A stretch of 64,000 nt of DNA, taken from the NCBI GenBank assembly GCA_945882315.1, contig CAMCWB010000005.1, forward strand, positions 1 through 64,000, given 5' to 3'. This document shows positions 13,479 to 47,110 of the stretch, piece after piece (position 1 is the stretch's first letter; each line of letters opens with the position of its first letter). This stretch comes from Bauldia litoralis. GTDB taxonomy: Bacteria > Pseudomonadota > Alphaproteobacteria > Rhizobiales > Kaistiaceae. Position numbers and translations under genes: made by a program. The notes under the pieces are model-generated. The model was not told the DNA's origin, searched no databases, and worked only from the letters and a program-made list of their open reading frames with translations.

Positions 13479-13640
13479 TGGGGTCCTCCCCCGTTTTACG
13501 GGGGAGGTGGCGACACGAAGTGTCGACGGAGGGGGCGGCGACCCGAAAGGCCTATCCAGGATTTCACTCGCTTCGGAGGCTGTGGTCGCCCCCTCCACCG
13601 CCTATCGGCGGTCCCCCTCCCCCGCTTCGCAGGGGAGGAT
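13479..13640. repeat. Large palindromic intergenic repeat, copy A
   Basis: The left arm is a hairpin of GTCCTCCCCCG and CGGGGGAGG around TTTTA, followed by GGCGACACGAAGTGTCG and GGAGGGGGCGGCGAC. The right arm carries the complement (GTCGCCCCCTCC) and a second hairpin CCTCCCCCGC-TTCG-CAGGGGAGGA. The whole therefore folds as one large inverted repeat. A second copy lies at 42166-42384. The rest of the 13403-13696 gap contains no supportable gene. Confidence 0.8.
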
Positions 13641-20267: not shown

Positions 20268-21875
20268 TCAGCCGGCGATCAGTTTCTCCAGCGTCTCCAG
20301 CCGGTCGGCCTCGGCCGGCGGCTTGTCCCAGCGGAGCCGGGAGATACGCGGAAAGCGCATGGCAATGCCGGATTTGTGGCGGGTGGAGCGCTGGAGCCCC
20401 TCGAAGGCGACTTCCAGTACCAGGCCCTTGGCGGCGTCATGGACGACTTCGCGCACCGGGCCGAAGCGGTTGACGGTGTTGTTGCGGACGAAGCGGTCGA
20501 TCTCGGCAAGCTCGGCGTCGGTGAAGCCGAAATAGGCCTTGCCGACCGGAACCAGCTCGGAACCGCCCTCGCCATCCTTCCAGACGCCGAATGTGTAGTC
20601 CGAATAGAAGGACGAGCGCTTGCCGTGGCCGCGCTGAGCATACATCAGCACGGCGTCGACGGTGTGCGGGTCGCGCTTCCATTTGAACCAGGGACCTTTC
20701 GGGCGGCCGGGCTCGTAGACCGAGTCCCAGCGCTTCAGCATGACGCCTTCGATGACGGCTTCCGGCGGAGCACGGCGGAGCGCCATCAATTCCTCACCAT
20801 TGGCGAAGGCGAGAAGCGGCGAGATGTCGAGCCGGTCGGAGCGTGCGCCTACGACCAGCGCCTCGAGACGCGCCCGGCGCGCGCGGAAGGGGAGCGTGCG
20901 GAGATCGTCGTCGCCGTCGACGAGGCAATCATAGACGCGGATGAAGGCCGGGTGGCTCGCCATCAGCTTCGGCGAGACGGTCTTGCGGTTGAGGCGCTGC
21001 TGGAGGTCGGAGAAGGAGCCGAGGGCGAAGCCGGCCTCACCGCGCGCGCCGATCAAAAGCTCGCCATCGAGGGCGCCTTCGTAGTCCAGTCCATCGACGA
21101 GATCGGGGAAGGCGCCGGAGATATCGTCGCCGGTGCGCGTATAGAGCCGCGCGGCGCCTTTCTCGCGCACCGCCTGGACGCGGATGCCGTCCCATTTCCA
21201 TTCGGCGGCGTAGAGATCCGGCGTAATCAAAGCGAGATCATTGTCGGCCAGCGCATGGGAGAGCATGACCGGCCGGAACGGCGCCAGGATCTTCGATTGC
21301 GGCTTCTCCGCCCGGCCTTCGAGCCAGGCGAAGAGGTCGAGATAGGGCGGCGCCAGGCCGTGCCAGACTTCCTCGATCTCGTTGACCTGGCGCTTGCCCA
21401 GATCGGCGAGCGCCTGCTTGGCGAGGCGCGACGAGACGCCGATGCGGAGGCCACCGGTGACGAGCTTGATCAGCGCCCAGCGTCCGGTGGCGTCGAGCAT
21501 GTCGAGCCAGCCGGCGACGAGCGTCGGGCCTTCGCTGCGCGAGGCGCGCAGCAGCCGCTCGACGATGTCGCGAAGCCGCGGCGGCTCCTCGCCAACCTCA
21601 TCCCGCGCATTCCAGACCAGGGAAATCGTCTCGGCGAGATCGCCGACATAGTCGTAGGAATAGGCGAAGAGGACCTCGTCGATGCGCTCGCCGACCAGCG
21701 CCCGCAGCATCGCCGGCTTGACGCTCGGAACCGCCAGTTCGCCGGTCAGCGCGGCCAGCGCATAGCCGCGGTCGGGGTCTGGCACGGTCGCGAAATAGTC
21801 GGCGAGCAGCCGCAGCTTGGCGTTTCGCTGCGGCGTCAGGACGAGCCGGTCGAGAAGGGCGGCGAAGCGCTGCAT
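20268..21875 (-). CDS. ATP-dependent DNA ligase of the ligase-associated repair system
   Basis: A 535-residue ATP-dependent ligase that seals nicks through a lysine-AMP intermediate. An N-terminal helical DNA-binding domain (~1-200) is followed by the adenylation domain with motif I 'EWKWDGIR' (Lys227), 'YTRTGDDISGAFPDL' (motif Ia/III region) and 'GVMLKRWDSVYEPGR' (motif IV/V), then an OB domain with 'GKAYFGFTDAEL'. This is the bacterial type that travels with an MBL-fold exonuclease, a DEXH helicase and PdeM, all in this window. Bacteria use the NAD-dependent LigA for replication, so this enzyme is a dedicated repair ligase. Confidence 0.93.
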   Translation of the reverse strand: MQRFAALLDRLVLTPQRNAKLRLLADYFATVPDPDRGYALAALTGELAVPSVKPAMLRALVGERIDEVLFAYSYDYVGDLAETISLVWNARDEVGEEPPRLRDIVERLLRASRSEGPTLVAGWLDMLDATGRWALIKLVTGGLRIGVSSRLAKQALADLGKRQVNEIEEVWHGLAPPYLDLFAWLEGRAEKPQSKILAPFRPVMLSHALADNDLALITPDLYAAEWKWDGIRVQAVREKGAARLYTRTGDDISGAFPDLVDGLDYEGALDGELLIGARGEAGFALGSFSDLQQRLNRKTVSPKLMASHPAFIRVYDCLVDGDDDLRTLPFRARRARLEALVVGARSDRLDISPLLAFANGEELMALRRAPPEAVIEGVMLKRWDSVYEPGRPKGPWFKWKRDPHTVDAVLMYAQRGHGKRSSFYSDYTFGVWKDGEGGSELVPVGKAYFGFTDAELAEIDRFVRNNTVNRFGPVREVVHDAAKGLVLEVAFEGLQRSTRHKSGIAMRFPRISRLRWDKPPAEADRLETLEKLIAG

Positions 21876-22021
21876 CGCCTCAGGCTCCGGCCGCGGGGCG
21901 CCGCGCCAAAAGACCGCGTTTCCGCCGGGCGTCAGGCATGGTGATCCCGGGCGGCAACGTGGTATGAAGGATTACAGATAGTTGTGCGTCTATTTTCTTG
22001 TAAAGAGTCCGGGGCAAGTCG

Positions 22022-22774
22022 ATGCGGGCCTTGGTCATAACCCTCTCGCTGGCGATGATCGTGGCCCTGCTGGTCGGCACCCTGGTTGTGTTCGGCGGGG
22101 TCCGGGTCAACCCGACGCTTCTCACGCTGCTCGGCGGCGGCCTCTTCATGGTGGCCGTGCTTTTTGCCTGTATCTCCGCCATCGGACCCAAATACCGGCC
22201 TACCCCTGCATTGACGCCGATCATGGCGAGCGCCGCGGCGCTTGCGGCGACCTTCGTGCTGGTCGCCAATCTGCAATTGTCGTCGGGCCAGGCCTCGGCA
22301 TTCCGGACAAGCCCGCCGCAGCCTGAAACATCGGAGCCGGTGCCGCAGGCCCGTTCAGTCGAGCCTGACGAAGTCCCGGCAGAGCTTTCGCTCCCTGAGC
22401 CGCCGGACGATGCTTTCGTCGCGATTCCGCCGCCCGACGACGTTCCCATGGACGCGCCGCCGATCGCCGACGAGCCGCCCGCGACGGCCGCGCTGCAGAG
22501 CGAGCCGACGCCGATGACTGCACCGACGGTGCCCGGCGCCACGACCGTTCCAATCCCGGTGCCGCGGCCGCGATCGCCCTCGGAGACGCCGCAGATGCTG
22601 GCACCCGGCGAAACGCTGACGCTCTCCAACGATCCCTTCGACGCGTCGACCCGGCCGCCGGTGCGAACCGTCACGCCGGGTGCAGCCGCGCCGACCCAGG
22701 CTGCGCCGCGCGGGGTCACTCCGCCTCTTCCTCGTACCCGACCATGTGGAGCGGGCGGGCCGCCGTGCCCCTGA
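22022..22774 (+). CDS. Membrane protein with a long Pro/Glu-rich tail, function unknown
   Basis: A 250-residue protein. Three hydrophobic segments (~4-28, ~34-54, ~66-86) are followed by a ~160-residue proline-rich, acidic, probably unstructured tail ('EPPDDAFVAIPPPDDVPMD', 'TVPIPVPRPRSPSETP'). No catalytic motif is visible. It is read on the plus strand through the gap between the minus-strand exonuclease and ligase genes, and its last ~59 bases overlap the exonuclease 3' end. Hydrophobic segments with a distinct low-complexity tail support a real gene. Confidence 0.65.
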   Translation: MRALVITLSLAMIVALLVGTLVVFGGVRVNPTLLTLLGGGLFMVAVLFACISAIGPKYRPTPALTPIMASAAALAATFVLVANLQLSSGQASAFRTSPPQPETSEPVPQARSVEPDEVPAELSLPEPPDDAFVAIPPPDDVPMDAPPIADEPPATAALQSEPTPMTAPTVPGATTVPIPVPRPRSPSETPQMLAPGETLTLSNDPFDASTRPPVRTVTPGAAAPTQAAPRGVTPPLPRTRPCGAGGPPCP

Positions 22775-23726
22775 GGGCGCACCAGCGCACCAGTGCTTCC
22801 TCGCGGCCATGGGTGACCCAGACCTCTTCCGGGTCGAGTTCGGCGATGGTCGCGGTCAGTTCATCCCAATCGCAGTGATCCGAGAGGATCAGCGGCAGTT
22901 CGACATTCGACTGCTTGGCGCGCTGGCGGATGCGCATCCAGCCCGAGGCGAAGCAGGCGACCGGATCGGGGAAGCGGCGCGCCCAGCGTTCGGCAATCTC
23001 GGAGGGCGGGCAGATGACCACCGCGCCGGCGAAATCGCCCTTGGCGCCGGTGGCGACCGTCGCCGGACCGAGCGGGCCCAGCGCCACCCCCTCCGCCTCG
23101 TAGAGCCGGCAAAGCTTTTCCATCGAGCCGTGCAGATAGATCGTCCGTTCGTAGCCGGCGTCGCGCAGCATGCGGATGACGCGCTGCGCCTTGCCCAGCG
23201 AATAGGCGCCGACGAGATGGGCGCGCTCGGGGAACTGGGCGAGCGAGGCGAGCAGCTTGGCGATCTCGGCCTCGGCCGGCGGGTGGCGGAAGACCGGCAG
23301 CGCGAAGGTCGCCTCGGTGATGAAGATATCGCAGGGTATCGGCTCGAAGCCGCGGCAGGTGGGATCGGCGCGGCGCTTGTAGTCGCCTGAGGCGACGATC
23401 GTCGGGCCGCCTGTCCGCACCTCGATCTGGGCCGAGCCGAGGACGTGGCCGGCGGGATGGAACCGGACCTCGGCGCCGCCGATCGTCAGCGGCCGTCCGA
23501 GTTCGGCCGCCTGCGTCGTGCCCGCAAAAGCCTCGCCATAGCGCGCCGCCATGATGCGCAGCGTCTCGGGCGTCGCGAGCACCGAGCCGTGGCCGGCGCG
23601 GGCGTGGTCGGAATGGCCGTGCGTGATCAGCGCGCGCGGCACCGGGCGGACGGGATCGATATGGAAATCGCCCGGCCGGCAATAGAGGCCGGCCGGCGTC
23701 GGGCAGAGGGTGTCTTCGGGCCGCAT
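22716..23726 (-). CDS. Ligase-associated MBL-fold DNA exonuclease
   Basis: This 336-residue protein starts at ATG 23726 ('MRPEDTLCPTPAGLYCRPGD'); open sequence further upstream is a shadow of the MFS gene. The metallo-beta-lactamase/beta-CASP metal motif 'THGHSDHARAG' (~32-42), 'FHPAGHVLGSAQ' (~74-85), 'VASGDYKRR' (~95-103) and the distal 'LSDHCDWDEL' (~285-294) are typical of SNM1/Pso2-like nucleases and of the ligase-associated exonuclease family. It is predicted to trim DNA ends before sealing by the ligase encoded downstream on the same strand, about 840 bases away. Confidence 0.9.
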   Translation of the reverse strand: MRPEDTLCPTPAGLYCRPGDFHIDPVRPVPRALITHGHSDHARAGHGSVLATPETLRIMAARYGEAFAGTTQAAELGRPLTIGGAEVRFHPAGHVLGSAQIEVRTGGPTIVASGDYKRRADPTCRGFEPIPCDIFITEATFALPVFRHPPAEAEIAKLLASLAQFPERAHLVGAYSLGKAQRVIRMLRDAGYERTIYLHGSMEKLCRLYEAEGVALGPLGPATVATGAKGDFAGAVVICPPSEIAERWARRFPDPVACFASGWMRIRQRAKQSNVELPLILSDHCDWDELTATIAELDPEEVWVTHGREEALVRWCALRGTAARPLHMVGYEEEAE

Positions 23727-23966
23727 TGCCTGAAGTGTGGGGTGGCAAGGTGTCCGCGACAAGGAGGCTGTCCGGAACTCGCGAAAAGTACCGCTTTCGG
23801 TTGAAAGCGCCGCAAAACACCTTGTCCGGCGCCAAAACGCGTGAGACGAATTGCCACAAGCGCGGCTGGCCGCGCAGCGAGTCGCGCCAAAAGCGGCCGC
23901 ATCGGGTGTGAGAGACGCTTCACGAGATCGCCGCCATGCGCTGGCGGCCGGCGGAGGGACGACACC

Positions 23967-25640
23967 ATGACAGACATGACGATGAACGGCGCCGCGGCGC
24001 CCCGGCGCATGACCGGCGCGGAGAAGCGCGTGATCTTCGCTTCTTCCCTCGGCACAGTGTTCGAGTGGTATGATTTCTACATCTACGGGACGCTGGCGGC
24101 GATCCTCGCCAAGCAGTTCTTCTCGTCGGCGCCGCCGAACGCCGCCTTCATCTTCACGCTGCTCGCCTTCGCCGCCGGCTTCGCGGTCCGGCCGTTCGGC
24201 GCGCTGTTCTTCGGCCGGCTCGGCGATCTCATCGGCCGCAAATACACCTTCCTCATCACCATGACCCTGATGGGCATCGGCACCTTCCTGATCGGCGTCC
24301 TGCCGAACTATGCCGCATGGGGCATCGCGGCGCCGACGATCCTGATTCTCCTCCGCCTCGTGCAGGGCTTGGCGCTCGGCGGCGAGTATGGCGGCGCGGC
24401 GACCTATGTCGCCGAGCATGCGCCAAACGGCCGGCGCGGCTTCTATACCTCCTGGATACAGACGACGGCGACGCTCGGCCTGTTCATGGCGATCGTCATC
24501 ATCCTCGTCATCCGCACGTGGATGGGCGAGGAGGCGTTCGCCGACTGGGGCTGGCGGATTCCGTTCCTGCTGTCGTCGATCCTGCTCGTGGTGTCGATCT
24601 GGATCCGGCTGTCGCTGGCGGAATCGCCGATGTTCCAGAAGATGAAGAACGAGGGCACGCGCTCGAAGGCGCCGCTCAAGGAAGCCTTCGGGACGCCGCG
24701 AAACGCCAAGATTGCGCTGCTGGCGCTGTTCGGCGCCACGGCCGGCGAAGCGGTGATCTGGTATGGCGGGCAGTTCTACGCACTGTTCTTCCTGACGCAG
24801 ACGCTGAAGGTGCCGGCGGTCGACGCCAGCATCATGATCGCGGTGTCGCTCCTCATCGGCACGCCCTTCTTCATCTTCTTCGGCTGGCTTTCGGACAAGA
24901 TCGGCCGCAAGCCGGTCATGCTCGCCGGCTTCGCGATCGCGGCGCTGACCTATTTCTGGATCTTCCAGGGGATCACGCATTACGCCAACCCGGCCCTGGA
25001 GCGGGCGCTCGCTGCATCGCCAGTGACGGTCATCGCGGACCCGGCCGAGTGCTCCTTCCAGCTCAAGCTGACCAACACCGAGACCTATGCGACGTCGTGC
25101 GACATCGCCAAGTCGACGCTGGTGACGAAGTCGGTGAATTACGACAACGTGGCGGCACCGGCGGGCACGGTCGCATCGGTCAAGATCGGCGAGCAGGTTA
25201 TCCCGGCCTTCAACGGCGCCGGGCTTCCGACTGCCGACCTCAAGGCCCAGACAGCGGCTTTCGACAAGGTGATCGCCGATGCCGTCACAGCGCATGGCTA
25301 TCCGCCCTCGGCCAACCCCGATGAGATCAACCGGCCGATGACGGTGGTGCTGCTCACTATCCTCGTCCTCTATGTGACGATGGTCTACGGGCCGATCGCG
25401 GCGTGGCTGGTGGAACTCTTCCCGACACGCATCCGCTATACCGGCATGTCGCTGCCCTACCATATCGGCAATGGCTGGTTCGGCGGCTTCCTGCCGGCCA
25501 TCGTCTTCGCGATCGTCGCCTCGACCGGCAACATCTATTCCGGCCTCTGGTACCCGATCGCGATCGCGGCGATGAGCTTCGTCGTGGCGCTCCTGTTCCT
25601 GCCGGAAACCAAGGATCGCGACCTGAACCATATCGAATAG
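23967..25640 (+). CDS. MFS metabolite:H+ symporter with a large extracytoplasmic insert
   Basis: A 557-residue major facilitator protein of the metabolite:H+ symporter group. The start at 23967 follows GGAGGGAC. The N-terminus 'LGTVFEWYDFYIYGTLAAIL' and 'RPFGALFFGRLGDLIGRKYT' are diagnostic of this group, as are 'RLVQGLALGGEYGGAATYVAE' and 'LFPTRIRYTGMSLPYH'. Between helices ~9 and 10 lies an insertion of roughly 110 residues (~350-465) with two Cys, predicted to sit outside the cytoplasm; typical members lack it and are ~430-450 residues. The substrate is probably a carboxylate or osmolyte. Confidence 0.88.
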   Translation: MTDMTMNGAAAPRRMTGAEKRVIFASSLGTVFEWYDFYIYGTLAAILAKQFFSSAPPNAAFIFTLLAFAAGFAVRPFGALFFGRLGDLIGRKYTFLITMTLMGIGTFLIGVLPNYAAWGIAAPTILILLRLVQGLALGGEYGGAATYVAEHAPNGRRGFYTSWIQTTATLGLFMAIVIILVIRTWMGEEAFADWGWRIPFLLSSILLVVSIWIRLSLAESPMFQKMKNEGTRSKAPLKEAFGTPRNAKIALLALFGATAGEAVIWYGGQFYALFFLTQTLKVPAVDASIMIAVSLLIGTPFFIFFGWLSDKIGRKPVMLAGFAIAALTYFWIFQGITHYANPALERALAASPVTVIADPAECSFQLKLTNTETYATSCDIAKSTLVTKSVNYDNVAAPAGTVASVKIGEQVIPAFNGAGLPTADLKAQTAAFDKVIADAVTAHGYPPSANPDEINRPMTVVLLTILVLYVTMVYGPIAAWLVELFPTRIRYTGMSLPYHIGNGWFGGFLPAIVFAIVASTGNIYSGLWYPIAIAAMSFVVALLFLPETKDRDLNHIE

Positions 25641-25663
25641 GCATTCAGCCGATCCGACATGCG

Positions 25664-25699
25664 AACGCCGGCACGGTTGACCGTGCCGGCGTTTTCTTT
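25664..25699 (+). terminator. Intrinsic terminator after the MFS gene
   Basis: ACGCCGGCACGG, loop TTGA, CCGTGCCGGCGT form a perfect 12-bp stem followed by TTTCTTT, starting 24 bases after the MFS stop. This is the clearest Rho-independent terminator in the window. The minus-strand gene ending at 25708 lies immediately beyond it. Confidence 0.88.
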
Positions 25700-25707
25700 G
25701 CGGGTGG

Positions 25708-26622
25708 TCAGTTAGCGAAGGCCCCCGGGCGCTTCGGCTCCTTGCCGACGCCACATTTCACGGTCACCGGTACCCATTCCGTCGAGATCGGATGGCCCTT
25801 TACGACGATCTTGTATTCGCGCGTGATCGACGTGTCGTAGGAATATTCCTTCGACCATCGCTTGGCGTATCCGTCGGGTGTCTTGTCGACGCTGATGCTC
25901 GCCGCCTGCTTTTCGCCGTCCTTCCGGTGCAGCGTGAACTCGATCTTGCCGGGCTTGTTGGTGTGGAACTCGGCGATGAGACGCACCGGTTTGCCGCAAA
26001 CCGGCTTGGCCGGGCTTGTATAGAGCCTCACCTCGTTCACCTTCAGGGCGACGGGCACGCGGGCCGGCGGCGTTGCATCTGCCGAAGCCGAAGCCGGCTC
26101 CTTCTTCGACGAGCAGACGACGCGCACCGGGAAGATACCCTTCACGCTGGGGCCGCTATTGCTCGATTCGGCCCACAGGCGGAGGCCGATCTCCATGTCG
26201 CGGACCGTCTTCTTGGCGCCGCCGAAGACGCTGCAGAGCGAGGCGGCGTCGTTCTTGAACGGTGCGAGGAAGTTCTTACCGATGGTGGTGTGCTCGAGCT
26301 TCTCATACTCGAAGGTTTTGTGCTCGGGCATCCACCAGAGATACTCGCCGGTGCGCTCGACGACGACGGCGGCATTCCAGAAGCGGTTGCCGACGGACTT
26401 GAGCTTCACCTTGGTGCGGACGTTGAAGTTCTTGCTCTGGCTGGACCACACCCAGCTCTTGCCGTTGTGTTCCATCTCCATGTAGGGCGCGTCGTCGAGC
26501 GTGGTCTGGACGACATGGAATTTAAGTTCGGTGATCTTGGCTGCGGCCGGCGCGGCGAAGACGAAGGTGGAGACTGCGAGGGTTGTCGCGGCTATGGCGA
26601 CAGAGAATGCGGGGCGTTTCAT
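25708..26622 (-). CDS. Secreted protein of unknown function
   Basis: A 304-residue protein starting at ATG 26622 (AGGAG eight bases upstream), with a clear signal peptide cleaved near 'APAAA' (~residue 28). The mature chain is beta-rich, with aromatic motifs 'WVWSSQSKNF' and 'YLWWMPEHKTFEYEKLEH'. Cysteines occur around 'SLCSVFGG', 'RVVCSSKK', 'KPVCGKPVR' and 'VKCGVG', enough for two disulphides. The C-terminal ~100 residues look like an immunoglobulin-type beta-sandwich. I do not recognise the family. It shares a divergent promoter region with the repair helicase. Confidence 0.75.
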   Translation of the reverse strand: MKRPAFSVAIAATTLAVSTFVFAAPAAAKITELKFHVVQTTLDDAPYMEMEHNGKSWVWSSQSKNFNVRTKVKLKSVGNRFWNAAVVVERTGEYLWWMPEHKTFEYEKLEHTTIGKNFLAPFKNDAASLCSVFGGAKKTVRDMEIGLRLWAESSNSGPSVKGIFPVRVVCSSKKEPASASADATPPARVPVALKVNEVRLYTSPAKPVCGKPVRLIAEFHTNKPGKIEFTLHRKDGEKQAASISVDKTPDGYAKRWSKEYSYDTSITREYKIVVKGHPISTEWVPVTVKCGVGKEPKRPGAFAN

Positions 26623-26679
26623 TTTTGATCTCCTGTCGAATGGTTGAACGTCGATGGAGATCAATCGCGCTTTTCCGCT

Positions 26680-26694
26680 GAACGGCAGTTGAAC
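26680..26694. promoter_or_regulatory. Candidate LexA (SOS) box
   Basis: GAAC-N7-GAAC, the reverse of the GTTC-N7-GTTC site used by alphaproteobacterial LexA, lies in the divergent region 58 bases before the secreted-protein gene and 177 bases before the DEXH helicase. Eight fixed bases occur by chance about once or twice per window, so only the location next to a DNA-damage gene makes it notable. Confidence 0.3.
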
Positions 26695-26778
26695 GGGAGG
26701 GTTGTGTTCCCGATTCCGGCAATCTCCGCAAGTTATTGATTTTCTTGATTTTCATGGCGATCTAGAACGATGCCGAGC

Positions 26779-26794
26779 TGTGACCGGCGTCACA
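26779..26794. promoter_or_regulatory. Candidate CRP-like site before the repair helicase
   Basis: TGTGACCGGCGTCACA fits TGTGA-N6-TCACA exactly, with one more matching base pair on each side (CTGTGAC...GTCACAG). It lies 77 bases upstream of the helicase start, suitable for promoter control. Which CRP/FNR-family protein would bind in this organism is not known, and the site could also be a small hairpin in the transcript leader. Confidence 0.35.
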
Positions 26795-26870
26795 GGCTCC
26801 GGGTTCTCGCAGCCGTCATCGACCATCGCATGTGATGGACGCTCGCGCCGGCCCGGTCTACGCCTGACGC

Positions 26871-29405
26871 ATGAGCCTCCGCCGAGCCTCGCGCGCCGTC
26901 GCCCCGCCTCTGCCGGCGCCCTTTGCCGACTGGTTCGCGGCACGCGGCTGGGCGCCGCGGCCGCATCAGCTGGAGCTGCTTGCCAAGACGCAGGCCGGGC
27001 ATTCGACGCTGCTGATCGCGCCGACCGGGGCCGGCAAGACGCTGGCCGGATTCCTGCCGAGCCTCATCGCGCTCCATGAGCGGCCGAAGAAGGCGCCGAT
27101 CGGCGGGCGCGGCATCCACACGCTCTACATCTCGCCGCTGAAGGCGCTGGCCGTCGACATCGCCCGCAATCTCGGCGGGCCGGTCGCGGAGATGGGATTG
27201 CCGGTCCGGCTGGAGACGCGGACCGGCGACACGCCCGTCCACAAGCGGCAGCGGCAGAAGCTGAAGCCGCCGGATATCCTGCTGACCACGCCGGAGCAGG
27301 CGGCGCTGCTGCTTTCGGCGCCGGATGCCGAGCGCTTCTTCGCCGACCTCGACACCGTCATCCTCGATGAATTGCATTCGCTGGTGGTCAGCAAGCGCGG
27401 CGATCTCCTGTCGCTCGACCTGGCGCGCCTCAGGACGCTGCGGCCGGGGCTGAAGGCGATCGGCCTCTCGGCGACGGTCGCCGAGCCGGATGACCTGCGC
27501 GGCTGGCTGGTCGGACAGTCGCCAGACAAGCCGGCGCCAGAAAAGCCGGCGCTCTCCGATCTCGTCGTGGTGCGGGGCGGGGCGAAGCCAGATATCTCGA
27601 TCCTCGCCTCCGACGAGCGCGTGCCCTGGGCCGGGCATTCGGCGCGCTACGCCTTCGCCGACATCTACGACCGGATCGCGACGCACCAGTTGGCGCTGCT
27701 CTTCGTCAATACGCGCAGCCAGGCCGAGATGGTCTTCCAGGAACTCTGGCGGATCAACAATCGCGACCTGCCGATCGCGCTCCATCACGGCTCGCTCGAC
27801 GCAACGCAGCGGCGGAAGGTCGAGGCGGCGATGGCCGCCGGCCAGCTCCGCGCCGTGGTCTGCACCTCGACGCTCGATCTCGGCATCGACTGGGGCGACG
27901 TCGACCTCGTCATCAATATCGGCGCACCCAAAGGGGCGAGCCGGCTCGCCCAGCGCATCGGCCGCGCCAACCACCGGCTCGACGAACCGTCCAAGGCGAT
28001 CCTGGTGCCGGCCAACCGCTTCGAGGTGATGGAATGCCAGGCGGCGCTCGACGCAAATTATCTCGGCGCGCAGGATACGCCCGCGATCCGGCCGGGGGCG
28101 CTCGACGTGCTGGCGCAGCATATCCTCGGCATGGCCTGCGCCCGCCCCTTCGACGCCGACGCCCTCTATCGCGAAACGATCTCGGCCTATCCCTATCGCG
28201 GGCTCGATCGGGAGACCTTCGACAAGGCCGTCGATTTCGTCGCGACCGGCGGCTATGCGCTGCGCACCTATGAGCGTTTCGCCCGCATCCGGAAAGGACC
28301 GGACGGCCTGTGGCGCATCACGCATCCGCGCGTCGCGCAGCAATACCGGCTGAATGTCGGGACGATCATCGAGGCGCCGCTGCTGAATGTCCGCCTGACG
28401 CGGAGCCGGCGCGCCGTGGTGGCGGCGCGGGGCGGCCGGGTGCTGGGCAAGATCGAGGAATCCTTCATCGAGGCGCTGGCGCCGGGCGACACGTTCCTCT
28501 TCGCCGGGCTGATCCTCCGCTTCGAGGGCCTGTTCGAGAATGAGGTGATCGCGACGCGCACGGCCGACGACACGCCGAAGATCCCGATCTATGCCGGCGG
28601 CAAGTTCCCGCTCTCGACCTATCTCGCCGCCGGCGTGCGCGCCATGCTCGCCGACGAGGGCAAGTGGACAGTGCTGCCCGACCAGGTCTCCGACTGGCTG
28701 CGCATCCAAAAAGAGCGCTCGGTACTGCCGCGGGCCGACCAGCTTCTCGTCGAGACCTTCCCACGCGGCAACCGGCATTATCTCGTCGCCTATCCGTTCG
28801 AGGGACGGCTGGCGCATCAGACGCTCGGCATGCTTCTGACGCGGCGGCTGGAGCGAGCGCGGCTCCGGCCGACGGGCTTCGTCGCCACGGACTACTCGCT
28901 GGGCGTCTGGGGGCTCGGCGACCTCGGCCAGGCCTTTGCGGACGGAAAGCCGACCATCGCCGAGCTCTTCGACGAGGACATGCTCGGCGACGACCTCGAT
29001 GCCTGGATGGCGGAGAGCTACCTTCTGAAGCGCATGTTCCGGAACTGCGCCCTCATCTCGGGGTTGATCGAGAAGCGGCATCCGGGCAAGGAGAAGTCCG
29101 GCCGGCAGGTGACAGTCTCCTCCGACCTGATCTATGACGTGCTGCGCAAGCACGAACCCGACCATATCCTGATAAAGGCGACCTGGGCCGACGCGTCGAG
29201 CGGCCTGCTCGACATCGGCCGGGTCAGCGATATGCTGGCGCGAATCAAGGGTCGGATTGTGCTCAAGCGGCTCGACCGGATTTCACCGCTGGCGGTTCCG
29301 GTCATGCTCGAAATCGGCAAGGAATCGATCGTCGGCGAGGCGCATGAGGACGTGCTCCGCGAGGCCGCGGACGACCTCGTCAGGGACGCGATGGGCAATG
29401 GCTGA
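26871..29405 (+). CDS. Ligase-associated DNA-damage-response DEXH-box helicase (Lhr-like)
   Basis: An 844-residue superfamily 2 helicase. The Q-like 'PRPHQLELLAKTQAG' (~29-43) precedes Walker A 'APTGAGKT' (50-57); Walker B 'DELH' is at 166-169, 'GLSATVAEPDDL' (motif III) follows, and domain 2 carries 'VCTSTLDLGIDWGDVDLVI' and 'QRIGRANHR' (motif VI). The C-terminal half is the Lhr-core type winged helix and beta-barrel. The family is defined by co-occurrence with the ATP-dependent ligase, the MBL exonuclease and PdeM, and is thought to unwind or remodel damaged DNA for end processing. It overlaps pdeM by eight bases. Confidence 0.93.
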   Translation: MSLRRASRAVAPPLPAPFADWFAARGWAPRPHQLELLAKTQAGHSTLLIAPTGAGKTLAGFLPSLIALHERPKKAPIGGRGIHTLYISPLKALAVDIARNLGGPVAEMGLPVRLETRTGDTPVHKRQRQKLKPPDILLTTPEQAALLLSAPDAERFFADLDTVILDELHSLVVSKRGDLLSLDLARLRTLRPGLKAIGLSATVAEPDDLRGWLVGQSPDKPAPEKPALSDLVVVRGGAKPDISILASDERVPWAGHSARYAFADIYDRIATHQLALLFVNTRSQAEMVFQELWRINNRDLPIALHHGSLDATQRRKVEAAMAAGQLRAVVCTSTLDLGIDWGDVDLVINIGAPKGASRLAQRIGRANHRLDEPSKAILVPANRFEVMECQAALDANYLGAQDTPAIRPGALDVLAQHILGMACARPFDADALYRETISAYPYRGLDRETFDKAVDFVATGGYALRTYERFARIRKGPDGLWRITHPRVAQQYRLNVGTIIEAPLLNVRLTRSRRAVVAARGGRVLGKIEESFIEALAPGDTFLFAGLILRFEGLFENEVIATRTADDTPKIPIYAGGKFPLSTYLAAGVRAMLADEGKWTVLPDQVSDWLRIQKERSVLPRADQLLVETFPRGNRHYLVAYPFEGRLAHQTLGMLLTRRLERARLRPTGFVATDYSLGVWGLGDLGQAFADGKPTIAELFDEDMLGDDLDAWMAESYLLKRMFRNCALISGLIEKRHPGKEKSGRQVTVSSDLIYDVLRKHEPDHILIKATWADASSGLLDIGRVSDMLARIKGRIVLKRLDRISPLAVPVMLEIGKESIVGEAHEDVLREAADDLVRDAMGNG

Positions 29406-30111
29406 AGCGGCGCAACACCTTTCCGGCACGGGGCCGGCAACGCTGATCGGCGTTCAGGGCACCGTGCTCGAGGCTTTGCCGGAGGGCGCGCTGTGGTGGG
29501 AAGGCGAACGCCTCCTCGCCGTCGCCGACCTGCATCTCGAGAAAGGCTCCTCCTTCGCGCGGCGCGGCCAGATGCTGCCGCCCTACGACACGGTCGAGAC
29601 GCTGTCACGGCTCGCCCTGCTGATCCGGCGCTTCAATCCGGCGACGGTGGTGGCGCTCGGCGATTCCTTCCACGACGATGGCGGCGCCGGCCGCATGACG
29701 CCGCGCGACCGGGCTGCGCTCGTGGATCTGCAGCGCGGCCGCAACTGGATCTGGATCGCCGGCAACCATGACCCGAAGGCGCCCGCCGGCCTCGACGGCG
29801 ACTGCCTCGACATGCTGACGCTCGGTTCGATCCGCTTCCGCCACGAGCCTTCCGCGACCCCAAGCGATGGCGAGATCGCCGGCCATCTCCACCCGGCGGC
29901 GCGCGTCGCAGGACGGGGCAAGTCGGTGCGCCGGCCCTGCTTCGTCGGCGACGGGACGCGGCTGGTGCTGCCCGCCTTCGGCGCCTATGCCGGCGGCCTC
30001 AACGTGCTCGACCGTGCCTTTGCCGGGCTCTTCGCGCGGCCGTTCCGGGCCTTCGTGCTCGGCAAGGACCGCGTCTATGCAGTGGCGCGGACCGTGCTCC
30101 GGCACGGGTGA
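29398..30111 (+). CDS. pdeM: Ligase-associated endonuclease/phosphoesterase PdeM
   Basis: A 237-residue calcineurin-like metallophosphoesterase starting at ATG 29398 inside the end of the helicase gene. Metal-site motifs are in order: 'AVADLHLEKG' (~41-50), 'ALGDSFHDDGG' (~84-94), 'WIAGNHDPKAP' (~118-128) and 'GEIAGHLHPAA' (~158-168). PdeM is the fourth member of the ligase-associated repair set and is assigned an endonuclease or phosphodiesterase role in DNA processing. The eight-base overlap implies translational coupling with the helicase. Confidence 0.92.
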   Translation: MAEAAQHLSGTGPATLIGVQGTVLEALPEGALWWEGERLLAVADLHLEKGSSFARRGQMLPPYDTVETLSRLALLIRRFNPATVVALGDSFHDDGGAGRMTPRDRAALVDLQRGRNWIWIAGNHDPKAPAGLDGDCLDMLTLGSIRFRHEPSATPSDGEIAGHLHPAARVAGRGKSVRRPCFVGDGTRLVLPAFGAYAGGLNVLDRAFAGLFARPFRAFVLGKDRVYAVARTVLRHG

Positions 30112-30124
30112 GCTAACCCGAATA

Positions 30125-30224
30125 CTCCGCTCATTCCCGCGCTACGCGGGAATCCAGCGCCACGACAAAGGCTGCGAATTGGCGCCCCTGGATCCCCGCT
30201 TTCGCGGGGACGAGCGGATGGGGA
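30125..30224. repeat. Composite palindromic repeat with CCGCTCAT/ATGAGCGG-like ends
   Basis: The outer ends CTCCGCTCATT and GACGAGCGGATGGGG are inverted. Inside are two hairpins, ATTCCCGCG-CTA-CGCGGGAAT and GGATCCCCGC-TTTC-GCGGGGA, separated by ~30 bases beginning CCAGCGCCACGACA. A second full copy is at 47013-47110, a half copy at 39847-39885 and a single hairpin at 6478-6516. It lies in the gap between the ends of pdeM and the TIGR02186 gene. Confidence 0.75.
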
Positions 30225-30250: not shown

Positions 30251-31024
30251 CTAATCGCGCCGGAAGACGACGCCGCCGAGCCAGCCGGTGAAGAGCGCCA
30301 GGACGACGCAGACGACGCCGTAGACGAAGGATTTCTCGCGCGAGAAGACCGACAGATATTGCTCGAATCCGGTCTTGGAAATGCGGAAGGATTCGTCGGC
30401 TTGGGCCAGCAGCGCACCATCGGCGAAGAGGAAGACACGGACGGTGTAGAAACCGACCGGGGCGTTGGCCGGCACCCAGACCGTCGTCCGGAAGACGCTG
30501 TCGCCGATGAAGGTGACGCTGTCCTGCTGCTCGCTATAGAGGCCGGCATTCTGCTTGATGCGCAGGAAGGCCTCGCGGAATTCGGCGGCGGCGGGATCGT
30601 TGGCCTGCGGGCGGCCGCGATAATCGAACCGGCTGTTGGCGAAGCCCAGCCGGTACCGTTCGAGGACCAGCTTCTCCGCCAGGTCGTCGATGTTGCCGCT
30701 GGCGTTAACCGTATAGAAGGACGGCGCCGCGAGGATCGTCTCGGAATCGGTGTTCGCCCAGACGCCGAGAATGCGGTCCTTGCGCCGGGCGATGACCGAT
30801 TCCGGCGGGCCCTGCACCAGCGTCGCGACCTGATAATGACCGCTCCGCGACACCGACTGCGCATCGCGCTCGATGACGCCGAAGAGCGTGATCGGCGCAC
30901 CGGTGAAATTGGAGCTGATCTTCACTTCGGCGGTCGAGAGGGCGATCGTCATGTGCTCGGCCACGGCCGGGCCCGCGGCAAGCGCGCCCGCGACCACCGC
31001 GAGGAGGACGGACCGGCGCATCAC
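30251..31024 (-). CDS. TIGR02186-family membrane-anchored protein, TSUP partner
   Basis: A 257-residue protein with a signal peptide (~1-22), a beta-rich periplasmic domain ('HMTIALSTAEVKISSNFTG', 'DSVTFIGDSVFRTTVWVP') and a C-terminal membrane helix (~234-251) ending 'GGVVFRRD'. This is the TIGR02186 layout. The gene overlaps the upstream TauE/SafE exporter by four bases, and this pairing is conserved in alphaproteobacteria. It is presumably an accessory subunit on the periplasmic side of the exporter; its exact role is unproven. Confidence 0.85.
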   Translation of the reverse strand: MMRRSVLLAVVAGALAAGPAVAEHMTIALSTAEVKISSNFTGAPITLFGVIERDAQSVSRSGHYQVATLVQGPPESVIARRKDRILGVWANTDSETILAAPSFYTVNASGNIDDLAEKLVLERYRLGFANSRFDYRGRPQANDPAAAEFREAFLRIKQNAGLYSEQQDSVTFIGDSVFRTTVWVPANAPVGFYTVRVFLFADGALLAQADESFRISKTGFEQYLSVFSREKSFVYGVVCVVLALFTGWLGGVVFRRD

Positions 31025-31950
31025 AGCCCGGCTCCGAAAAGCAGGGTAATGGTGAAGCGCTCATCCGGCGTCGCGACGAGGCCGACGAGGAAGCGGACCG
31101 CGACGGCGATGACAAGCAGCGCCAGCATGGCGCGGAGATGATCGCCGCGGAGGTTCTGGCCGATGCGGGCGCCGAACTGGGCGCCGATGACGCCGCCGAC
31201 CATCAGGATGACGGCGAGCACGAAATCGACCGACTGGTTGGTCATCGCATGCAGCACGGTCGCGACCGACATGGTGCCGACGATCTGCACCAGCGAGGTG
31301 CCGATGACGACATTGGTCGGCACGCGCAGCAGGTAGATCAGCGCCGGCACCATGATGAAGCCGCCGCCGATGCCGAGCAGCGTACCGAGGAAACCGATGC
31401 CGATGCCGATCAGCACCACCGGGATGACGCTGATGTAGAGCTTCGAGCGCTTGAAGCGCATCTTGAAGGGCAGGCCGTGCAGCCAGGTATGCTGGCCCGG
31501 ACGCCGAAGCGGCGCCGGGCGACCGCGGCGCGCGTTGAAGATCGAGCGGATCGACTCGTTCAGCATCAGCCCGCCGATGAGGCCGAGAAAGGTCACGTAG
31601 GCGAGCGCGACGATGAGATCGAGCTGGCCGAGGCGGCGGAGAAGATCGAAGACGACGACACCGATGCTGGAGCCCATGACGCCGGAGACGACCAGCACCA
31701 TCGCCAGCTTCATGTCGATCATGTTGCGGCGCCAGTAGGCGAGCGCGCCGGACGCCGAGGAGGCGACGATCTGCGGCGCGACGCTCGCCACCGCAACGAC
31801 GGGTGGAATGCCGGAGAAGATGAGGAGCGGCGTCAGGAGAAAGCCGCCGCCGACGCCGAACAGGCCCGAGAGGAAGCCCACGGCTCCCCCCATGCCGAAG
31901 ATGACGAACATGTTGACCGAAAGCTCGGCGATGGGGAGGTAGATCAACAC
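31021..31950 (-). CDS. TauE/SafE (TSUP) family anion exporter
   Basis: A 309-residue inner-membrane protein with eight predicted helices in two repeats. The family glycine motifs 'GFLSGLFGVGGGFLLTPLLI' (~25-44) and 'GFLGTLLGIGGGFIMVPALI' (~187-206) are clear, each at a repeat start. TSUP members export sulphite, sulphoacetate or related organosulphur anions. A basic loop ('RRGRPAPLRRPGQHTWL') separates the halves. It is translationally coupled to its TIGR02186 partner (four-base overlap). Confidence 0.88.
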   Translation of the reverse strand: MLIYLPIAELSVNMFVIFGMGGAVGFLSGLFGVGGGFLLTPLLIFSGIPPVVAVASVAPQIVASSASGALAYWRRNMIDMKLAMVLVVSGVMGSSIGVVVFDLLRRLGQLDLIVALAYVTFLGLIGGLMLNESIRSIFNARRGRPAPLRRPGQHTWLHGLPFKMRFKRSKLYISVIPVVLIGIGIGFLGTLLGIGGGFIMVPALIYLLRVPTNVVIGTSLVQIVGTMSVATVLHAMTNQSVDFVLAVILMVGGVIGAQFGARIGQNLRGDHLRAMLALLVIAVAVRFLVGLVATPDERFTITLLFGAGL

Positions 31951-47012: not shown

Positions 47013-47110
47013 ACACTCCGCTCATTCCCGCGAAAGCGGGAAGCCAAGGGCCAGTCGGCACCGCTCTGGGCCCCTGGATCCCCGCGTGCAGCGGGGATGA
47101 GCGGATGGGG
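47013..47110. repeat. Composite palindromic repeat with CCGCTCAT/ATGAGCGG ends
   Basis: The outer inverted ends CTCCGCTCAT and ATGAGCGGATGGGG enclose a left hairpin (ATTCCCGC-GAAA-GCGGGAA) and a right hairpin (GGATCCCCGC-GTGCA-GCGGGGAT). The layout and spacing match the copy at 30125-30224, while loops and spacer differ, as expected for old dispersed copies that keep pairing. It fills the gap between the ends of tctA and rsm22. Confidence 0.75.

Follow-up and report, generated by a model that had tools for sequence, protein, structure and literature searches.

A complete ligase-associated repair set with genes in both gaps

The window analysed here is a stretch of 64,000 nucleotides of Bauldia litoralis DNA. 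It contains the four genes of a ligase-associated DNA repair set, together with three further open reading frames (ORFs):

20268..21875, reverse strand: ATP-dependent DNA ligase of the ligase-associated set (TIGR04120, 535 aa, KWDG motif)
22022..22774, forward strand: Pro-rich putative membrane ORF (250 aa, coding status uncertain)
22716..23726, reverse strand: metallo-beta-lactamase-fold exonuclease (TIGR04122, 336 aa, THGHSDH motif)
23967..25640, forward strand: MFS transporter of the metabolite:H+ symporter type (557 aa, probable passenger)
25708..26622, reverse strand: secreted protein (304 aa, predicted C-terminal beta sandwich at about residues 195-290, probable passenger)
26871..29405, forward strand: Lhr-Core DEXH-box helicase (TIGR04121, 844 aa, GAGKT and DELH motifs)
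29398..30111, forward strand: PdeM/MPE metallophosphoesterase (TIGR04123, 237 aa, GNHD and GHLHP motifs)

An earlier, sequence-only reading had recognised a ligase, an MBL exonuclease, a DEXH helicase and PdeM within 10 kb, and had named them a ligase-associated repair system. Both the identifications and the name proved correct, as all four proteins scored over the NCBIfam cut-offs of their families: 818.9 bits for the ligase (TIGR04120, cut-off 400), 471.6 bits for the exonuclease (TIGR04122, cut-off 325), 1094 bits for the helicase (TIGR04121, cut-off 850), which also carries the WH_Lhr and DEAD_assoc domains of Pfam, and 238.7 bits for PdeM (TIGR04123, cut-off 150). The motifs that we take to be catalytic in these enzymes (KWDG; GAGKT and DELH; THGHSDH; GNHD and GHLHP) were found in all four gene products. 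From ligase start to PdeM end the set occupies exactly 20268-30111, so that all four genes lie inside 9.8 kb, and they are not contiguous; the PdeM ORF overlaps the helicase ORF by 8 nt. The window holds a complete ligase-associated DNA damage response set, a well-known four-gene system, and there is nothing new in the system itself. From what is established for these families, the four enzymes would act together on damaged DNA: the helicase would open the duplex, PdeM would nick a single strand, the exonuclease would trim and the ligase would seal. According to the portion of PMC10140301 consulted, the precise role of the set and the damage that it handles are not known.

The Pro-rich ORF is located within the pair formed by exonuclease and ligase. 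It is antisense to both genes and shares 59 nt with the 3' end of the exonuclease gene. Between the two pairs there are just two genes, those of the MFS transporter and the secreted protein. The locus had been described as two divergent pairs separated by all three of these genes. The three ORFs do exist and two of them are placed as described; the Pro-rich ORF is not, since it lies within a pair.

Layout of the set in relatives

The layout was compared with that of named loci, which are the best 80 of at least 592 matching stretches obtained from a ligase scan of genome contigs and in which the set genes were located by tblastn with the window's proteins. Loci L001, L002, L003 and L069 were taken as the same records as G019, G016, G027 and G009; these are genomes of the window's family, so that the loci counts include them twice. 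Among these best 80 of at least 592 stretches, the exonuclease was present in 68 and lay on the ligase's strand in every one of the 68; five of the 12 loci without it have no more than 9 kb of upstream DNA. Exonuclease and helicase were both present in 40 of the best 80 of at least 592, and they were divergent in 40 of 40. Two divergent pairs are therefore the rule, and the arrangement that had been presented as an unusual split is the usual layout.

Gaps were called tight when they measured at most 300 bp between exonuclease and ligase and at most 400 bp between exonuclease and helicase. All four genes were found in 36 named loci (from the best 80 of at least 592). Both gaps were tight in 12 of them, 20 were open only between exonuclease and helicase, one was open only between exonuclease and ligase, and three had both gaps open like the window. 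The statement that the four genes are adjacent in many genomes holds for those 12 loci, which are a minority of the 36 four-gene loci within the best 80 of at least 592.

Helicase and PdeM lay at most 150 bp apart in 33 of 36 named loci (best 80 of at least 592). Their distance was 2.1-2.3 kb in G026, G023, G019 and G013, and about 10 kb in G014 (L124, L135, L136, L138, L126), where PdeM lies beyond the fetched stretch around the locus. MPE genes near blhr genes are reported for 276 of 319 genomes in the part of PMC8301817 consulted.

The window is thus like its relatives in its four families and their motifs, and in a helicase that adjoins PdeM and diverges from the exonuclease. It differs in that an opposite-strand ORF parts the exonuclease from the ligase and in that two more genes lie between the pairs. 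We read the locus as a complete repair set in the usual order, in which unrelated genes have accumulated in both gaps, and give this reading a probability of about 0.9.

The set in the window's family

The family comparison covered 28 genomes, that is the window's own and 27 others, all from outside the window's genus. Exonuclease and PdeM were over cut-off in all 28 genomes and the helicase in 26, being split over contigs in the other two; a ligase match was found in 28 of 28. A tree built from ligase, exonuclease and helicase by a quick method (LG+G4; 28 family rows and 7 others) grouped the window with G011, G006 and G001-G005 (99% SH-aLRT), the branching within this clade being resolved only in part. 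Ligase and exonuclease are apart in five of these eight genomes, on another contig in the drafts G002-G005 and at 77 kb in G001; their distance is 3.6 kb in G006, 4.9 kb in G011 and 0.8 kb in the window.

The gap contents are named here from their sequences, and the names are presumptive. In 13 of the 14 g8 genomes an EamA-type gene separates exonuclease from ligase; G011 carries L,D-transpeptidase-like, UvrD-like and AspH-like genes, and G006 and G008 carry other transporters. Gap contents turn over between lineages. Since the four genes are retained as a set in genomes that have lost their adjacency, linkage does not seem to be required for them to cooperate; conservation of the set even where it is scattered fits a shared function without need for an operon.

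The UvrD-like gene, presumably a helicase, occupies the exonuclease-ligase gap of G006 and G011 (L113, 6623-8659; L114, 10488-12542) and was considered as a fifth component. A match of at least 68% identity was present in 25 of the 28 family genomes, including G006, G011 and the window's own. This candidate was rejected: outside G006 and G011 the gene is away from the set as far as coordinates tell, being on contig C39 in the window's own genome and 11 kb from the exonuclease in G001.

In 42 of 120 sequences (e.g. L018, L047, L058), a gene that we take to be TPR-methyltransferase-like adjoined the exonuclease, and these included sequences with no helicase nearby. Of the 42, 32 were listed, every one a named locus that does not belong to the window's family.

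Of the neighbours observed, the most persistent are two genes located just outside 20268-30111:

30251..31024, reverse strand: Alph_Pro_TM membrane protein (PF09608), a persistent neighbour of the set in relatives
31021..31950, reverse strand: permease-like ORF, presumably of the TauE/SafE type, whose homologues accompany the Alph_Pro_TM gene

An Alph_Pro_TM homologue was found at most 2 kb from PdeM in 24 of the 36 PdeM-holding named loci (best 80 of at least 592) and in the fetched stretches of 24 of the 28 family genomes, those of G007-G010 having none. In G012 and all eight members of the window's clade, at most 1.2 kb separates it from PdeM. G027 and the 14 g8 genomes have it on the ligase side at 0.4-1.5 kb, except that the distance is larger in G024 (2.3 kb) and G021 (4.5 kb).

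The intervening genes

No NCBIfam or Pfam match was obtained for the Pro-rich ORF. The 27 other family genomes yielded no relatives of it, although it may be too divergent or of too low complexity for such searches, and its first 100 residues had no match in 396 genomes of the order. It may not be a gene at all, in which case the 843-bp exonuclease-ligase spacer would be non-coding remnant DNA. Besides the lack of relatives in the searched genomes, this is suggested by a codon-usage score that is weak and uneven, with 0.19 per codon N-terminally and -0.02 over the Pro-rich part (one antisense frame scores slightly higher there, at 0.02), and by a 300-aa antisense ORF that is open across the region of the proposed ORF. 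The four flanking genes score 0.32-0.53, but they belonged to the training set too. Conversely, over the hydrophobic N-terminal part the proposed frame outscores all others (0.19, the next frame reaching -0.07), and the proposed strand is open for 250 codons. Taken together, we put the chance that the ORF is not a gene somewhat short of even.

The MFS protein matched TIGR00883 in two stretches (best 29-340) with 350.4 bits, under the cut-off of 443.45, which indicates that part of its second half departs from the family model. MFS relatives (E<=1e-60) were found in eight other family genomes. In G011 the protein is 82% identical to that of the window and its gene occupies the same place and orientation; this is the only case in the gap. 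In the seven other genomes the gene is away from the set, either on a different contig or separated from the ligase by 9.6 to about 700 kb. Its presence in both the window and G011 implies either an insertion kept since their common ancestor or one that happened twice.

The secreted protein had no family match in NCBIfam or Pfam and no match in any of the 27 other family genomes. Among 396 other genomes of the order, 12 have a relative, which in nine of them matches only the C-terminal part, from residue 157 on. In none of these 12 genomes was the relative seen near the ligase: seven are without such a ligase at E<=1e-50, and in the other five it is on a different contig (three genomes) or at least 1.5 Mb off (two genomes). 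In a single-sequence AlphaFold2 model (mean pLDDT 52.2), only residues 195-290 or so were confident. Comparison of the fold with the PDB gave a best E of 5.3e-4 and a TM-score over the query of at most 0.27 among the 50 matches listed; because these matches are weak and mixed, we name no family for the protein.

The sequence-only reading had left the interveners as either passengers or uncharacterised partners of the set. The proposal of a partner would have one or more of them, most plausibly the secreted protein or the Pro-rich ORF, serve the repair set, for example in anchoring or damage sensing. Their location between set components would suit such a role, as would the place and orientation of the MFS gene common to the window and G011. 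The neighbourhood and relatives searches gave no support to it, however: co-occurrence of the secreted or membrane protein with the set was not observed, as secreted-protein relatives occur in few genomes of the order (12 of 396), which have no such ligase or have it on another contig or far away, and no relatives of the Pro-rich ORF were found in the genomes searched. A transporter or a secreted protein would also have no obvious role in cytoplasmic DNA repair. We consider a partnership very improbable. Finding the interveners elsewhere in relatives had been proposed as the sign of simple insertion, and this is largely what is seen, the MFS gene being elsewhere in seven of eight genomes with G011 as the exception. 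To judge from the sequences, the interveners are most likely passengers that would take no part in repair; read-through or co-regulation of an intervener with the set may occur. The four genes are loosely linked in this order, and a position in one of the gaps does not by itself point to a partner.

Possible consequences for regulation

The accumulation of genes in both gaps would have turned two original transcription units into three, because the Pro-rich ORF parts the ligase from the exonuclease (leaving a spacer of 146 bp, 21876-22021) and because the MFS and secreted-protein genes would replace a shared exonuclease-helicase promoter region by two. Separate promoter regions would lie at 23727-23966 and 26623-26870, and three promoter regions would replace two. 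One of these regions contains the following site:

26680..26694, reverse strand: LexA-box-like site GTTCN7GTTC, 176 bp upstream of the helicase ORF

With this sequence presumed to be the LexA-box consensus, the two pairs might have come under different regulators after the split, the helicase-PdeM pair joining the SOS response through the site. The match upstream of the helicase is exact, and such a site was located at most 350 bp upstream in 6 of 69 helicase sequences, window included. The helicase does not stand out in this respect, since an upstream site was also present in 4 of 96 exonuclease and 11 of 109 ligase sequences. Moreover, no other helicase-bearing locus of the family has the site, there is none upstream of the window's exonuclease, and the whole window contains 4 sites against 1.57 expected, a number reached in 9 of 100 shuffles. 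With the upstream site not conserved in the family, SOS (LexA) control of the helicase pair was rejected as a candidate, and we regard it as unlikely.

Palindromic repeats inside the ligase and helicase of relatives

A side observation on palindromes is the only part of this analysis worth following. The strict palindrome CCTCYCCCN3-7GGGRGAGG is present in 27 of the 28 family genomes, at 0-302 copies per genome, against 0-5 for a reversed-pattern control; the window's genome has 113 strict copies. Two of these are in the window, at 13485 and 42168, each past the stop codon of a long ORF, and the window's own ligase and helicase have no palindromic insert. The copies at 13485 and 42168 are of a longer palindromic repeat, and the flanking sequence on both sides is similar between them.

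In 13 of the 27 other family genomes, a strict copy is found in one loop of the ligase (8 genomes) or of the helicase (5 more). The loci with in-frame repeats are L113, L114, L143, L145 and L146 for the helicase, and L130, L131, L133 and L135-L139 for the ligase. Inserts of at least 15 aa were counted after about residue 88 of the ligase in 16 of 105 loci and at about residues 205-232 of the helicase in 8 of 64 loci; both counts include some duplicates, leave out 3 ligase and 4 helicase sequences that have stops or are short, and do not count the window. Many inserts contain near-perfect palindromes and several have no strict palindrome. Jiella (L054, L066) and Ahrensia (L055) have looser palindromes in this ligase loop, and L004 has them in its helicase. 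The 15 longest ligase matches, of 571-676 aa, have no stop, and no inside stop was listed. In an AlphaFold2 model of the Kaistia granuli ligase (L001), residues 92-151 are disordered between two helices and the rest is confident.

On the 35-row tree, the inserts of at least 15 aa require at the fewest 6 changes in the ligase and 4 in the helicase, with the fragmentary sequences of G010 and G021 (ligase) and G007 and G021 (helicase) left out. Among close relatives, the copies in these two genes are not independent of one another.

The 547 kb of family loci contained 28 strict copies: 11 intergenic, 8 in the ligase, 6 in the helicase, 1 at a gene edge and 2 in another ORF. We judge the last two to be no exceptions, because one (L126:8073) lies between exonuclease and helicase matches and the other (L148:103) adjoins a ligase fragment where a contig ends. 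As the family regions are centred on set genes, the absence of other in-gene copies there comes from a biased sample. A background sample was taken from G001-G003, with 68 copies in 48 stretches, contig-end places being skipped. Of these copies, 18 overlap a candidate ORF (16 ORFs, 13 of which were searched against NCBIfam or Pfam). Three copies are clearly intragenic, one in uvrA and two in a dnaE2-type polymerase. Two more are unsure: one in uvrB, past the end of the family match, and one in cobN, where the match stops before the copy and near a contig end. cobN is not a repair gene. The other 13 of the 18 candidate intragenic copies were not supported or not resolved.

These observations suggest, tentatively and with the odds clearly against it for now, that the set genes in this order are preferred sites of in-frame capture of genome-wide palindromic repeats: the ligase and helicase loops have been filled repeatedly across genera, most copies elsewhere lie between genes, and the clearest sampled cases within genes are in other repair genes. 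If true, the spread of the repeats and DNA repair genes would be linked, by target choice or by tolerance, and the set would offer a compact test bed. This bears on an older puzzle, namely why intragenic palindromic repeats are found so often in DNA repair genes.

Intragenic REPs in DNA repair genes are in print, in uvrA, dnaE2 and a DNA ligase of O. terrae (PMC3733652, part consulted), so that the kind is already known. As far as the same part of that paper goes, a shared intragenic REP site is reported for recB in two Xanthomonas species only. The repeats of the window's relatives are like intragenic REPs and Rickettsia palindromic elements, as presented in the parts of PMC3733652 and PMC10969869 consulted, in being short, palindromic, genome-wide and in frame, with repair genes prominent. 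They differ from the REPs described in that part of PMC3733652 in that several genera of a single order have repeats at one common loop in each of two genes. Among the papers listed, none was seen, by title and opening of the abstract, to treat these two genes in this order.

Palindromes of another kind are present in the window beside the set:

30133..30210, no strand assigned: two different palindromes, ATTCCCGC..GCGGGAAT and TCCCCGC..GCGGGGA, just past the PdeM stop codon

Window-wide, these two patterns had 1 and 2 matches against 0.00 and 0.03 expected, the matches including one at 47079-47097. Similar palindromes were seen within the helicase gene of G004 (L145).
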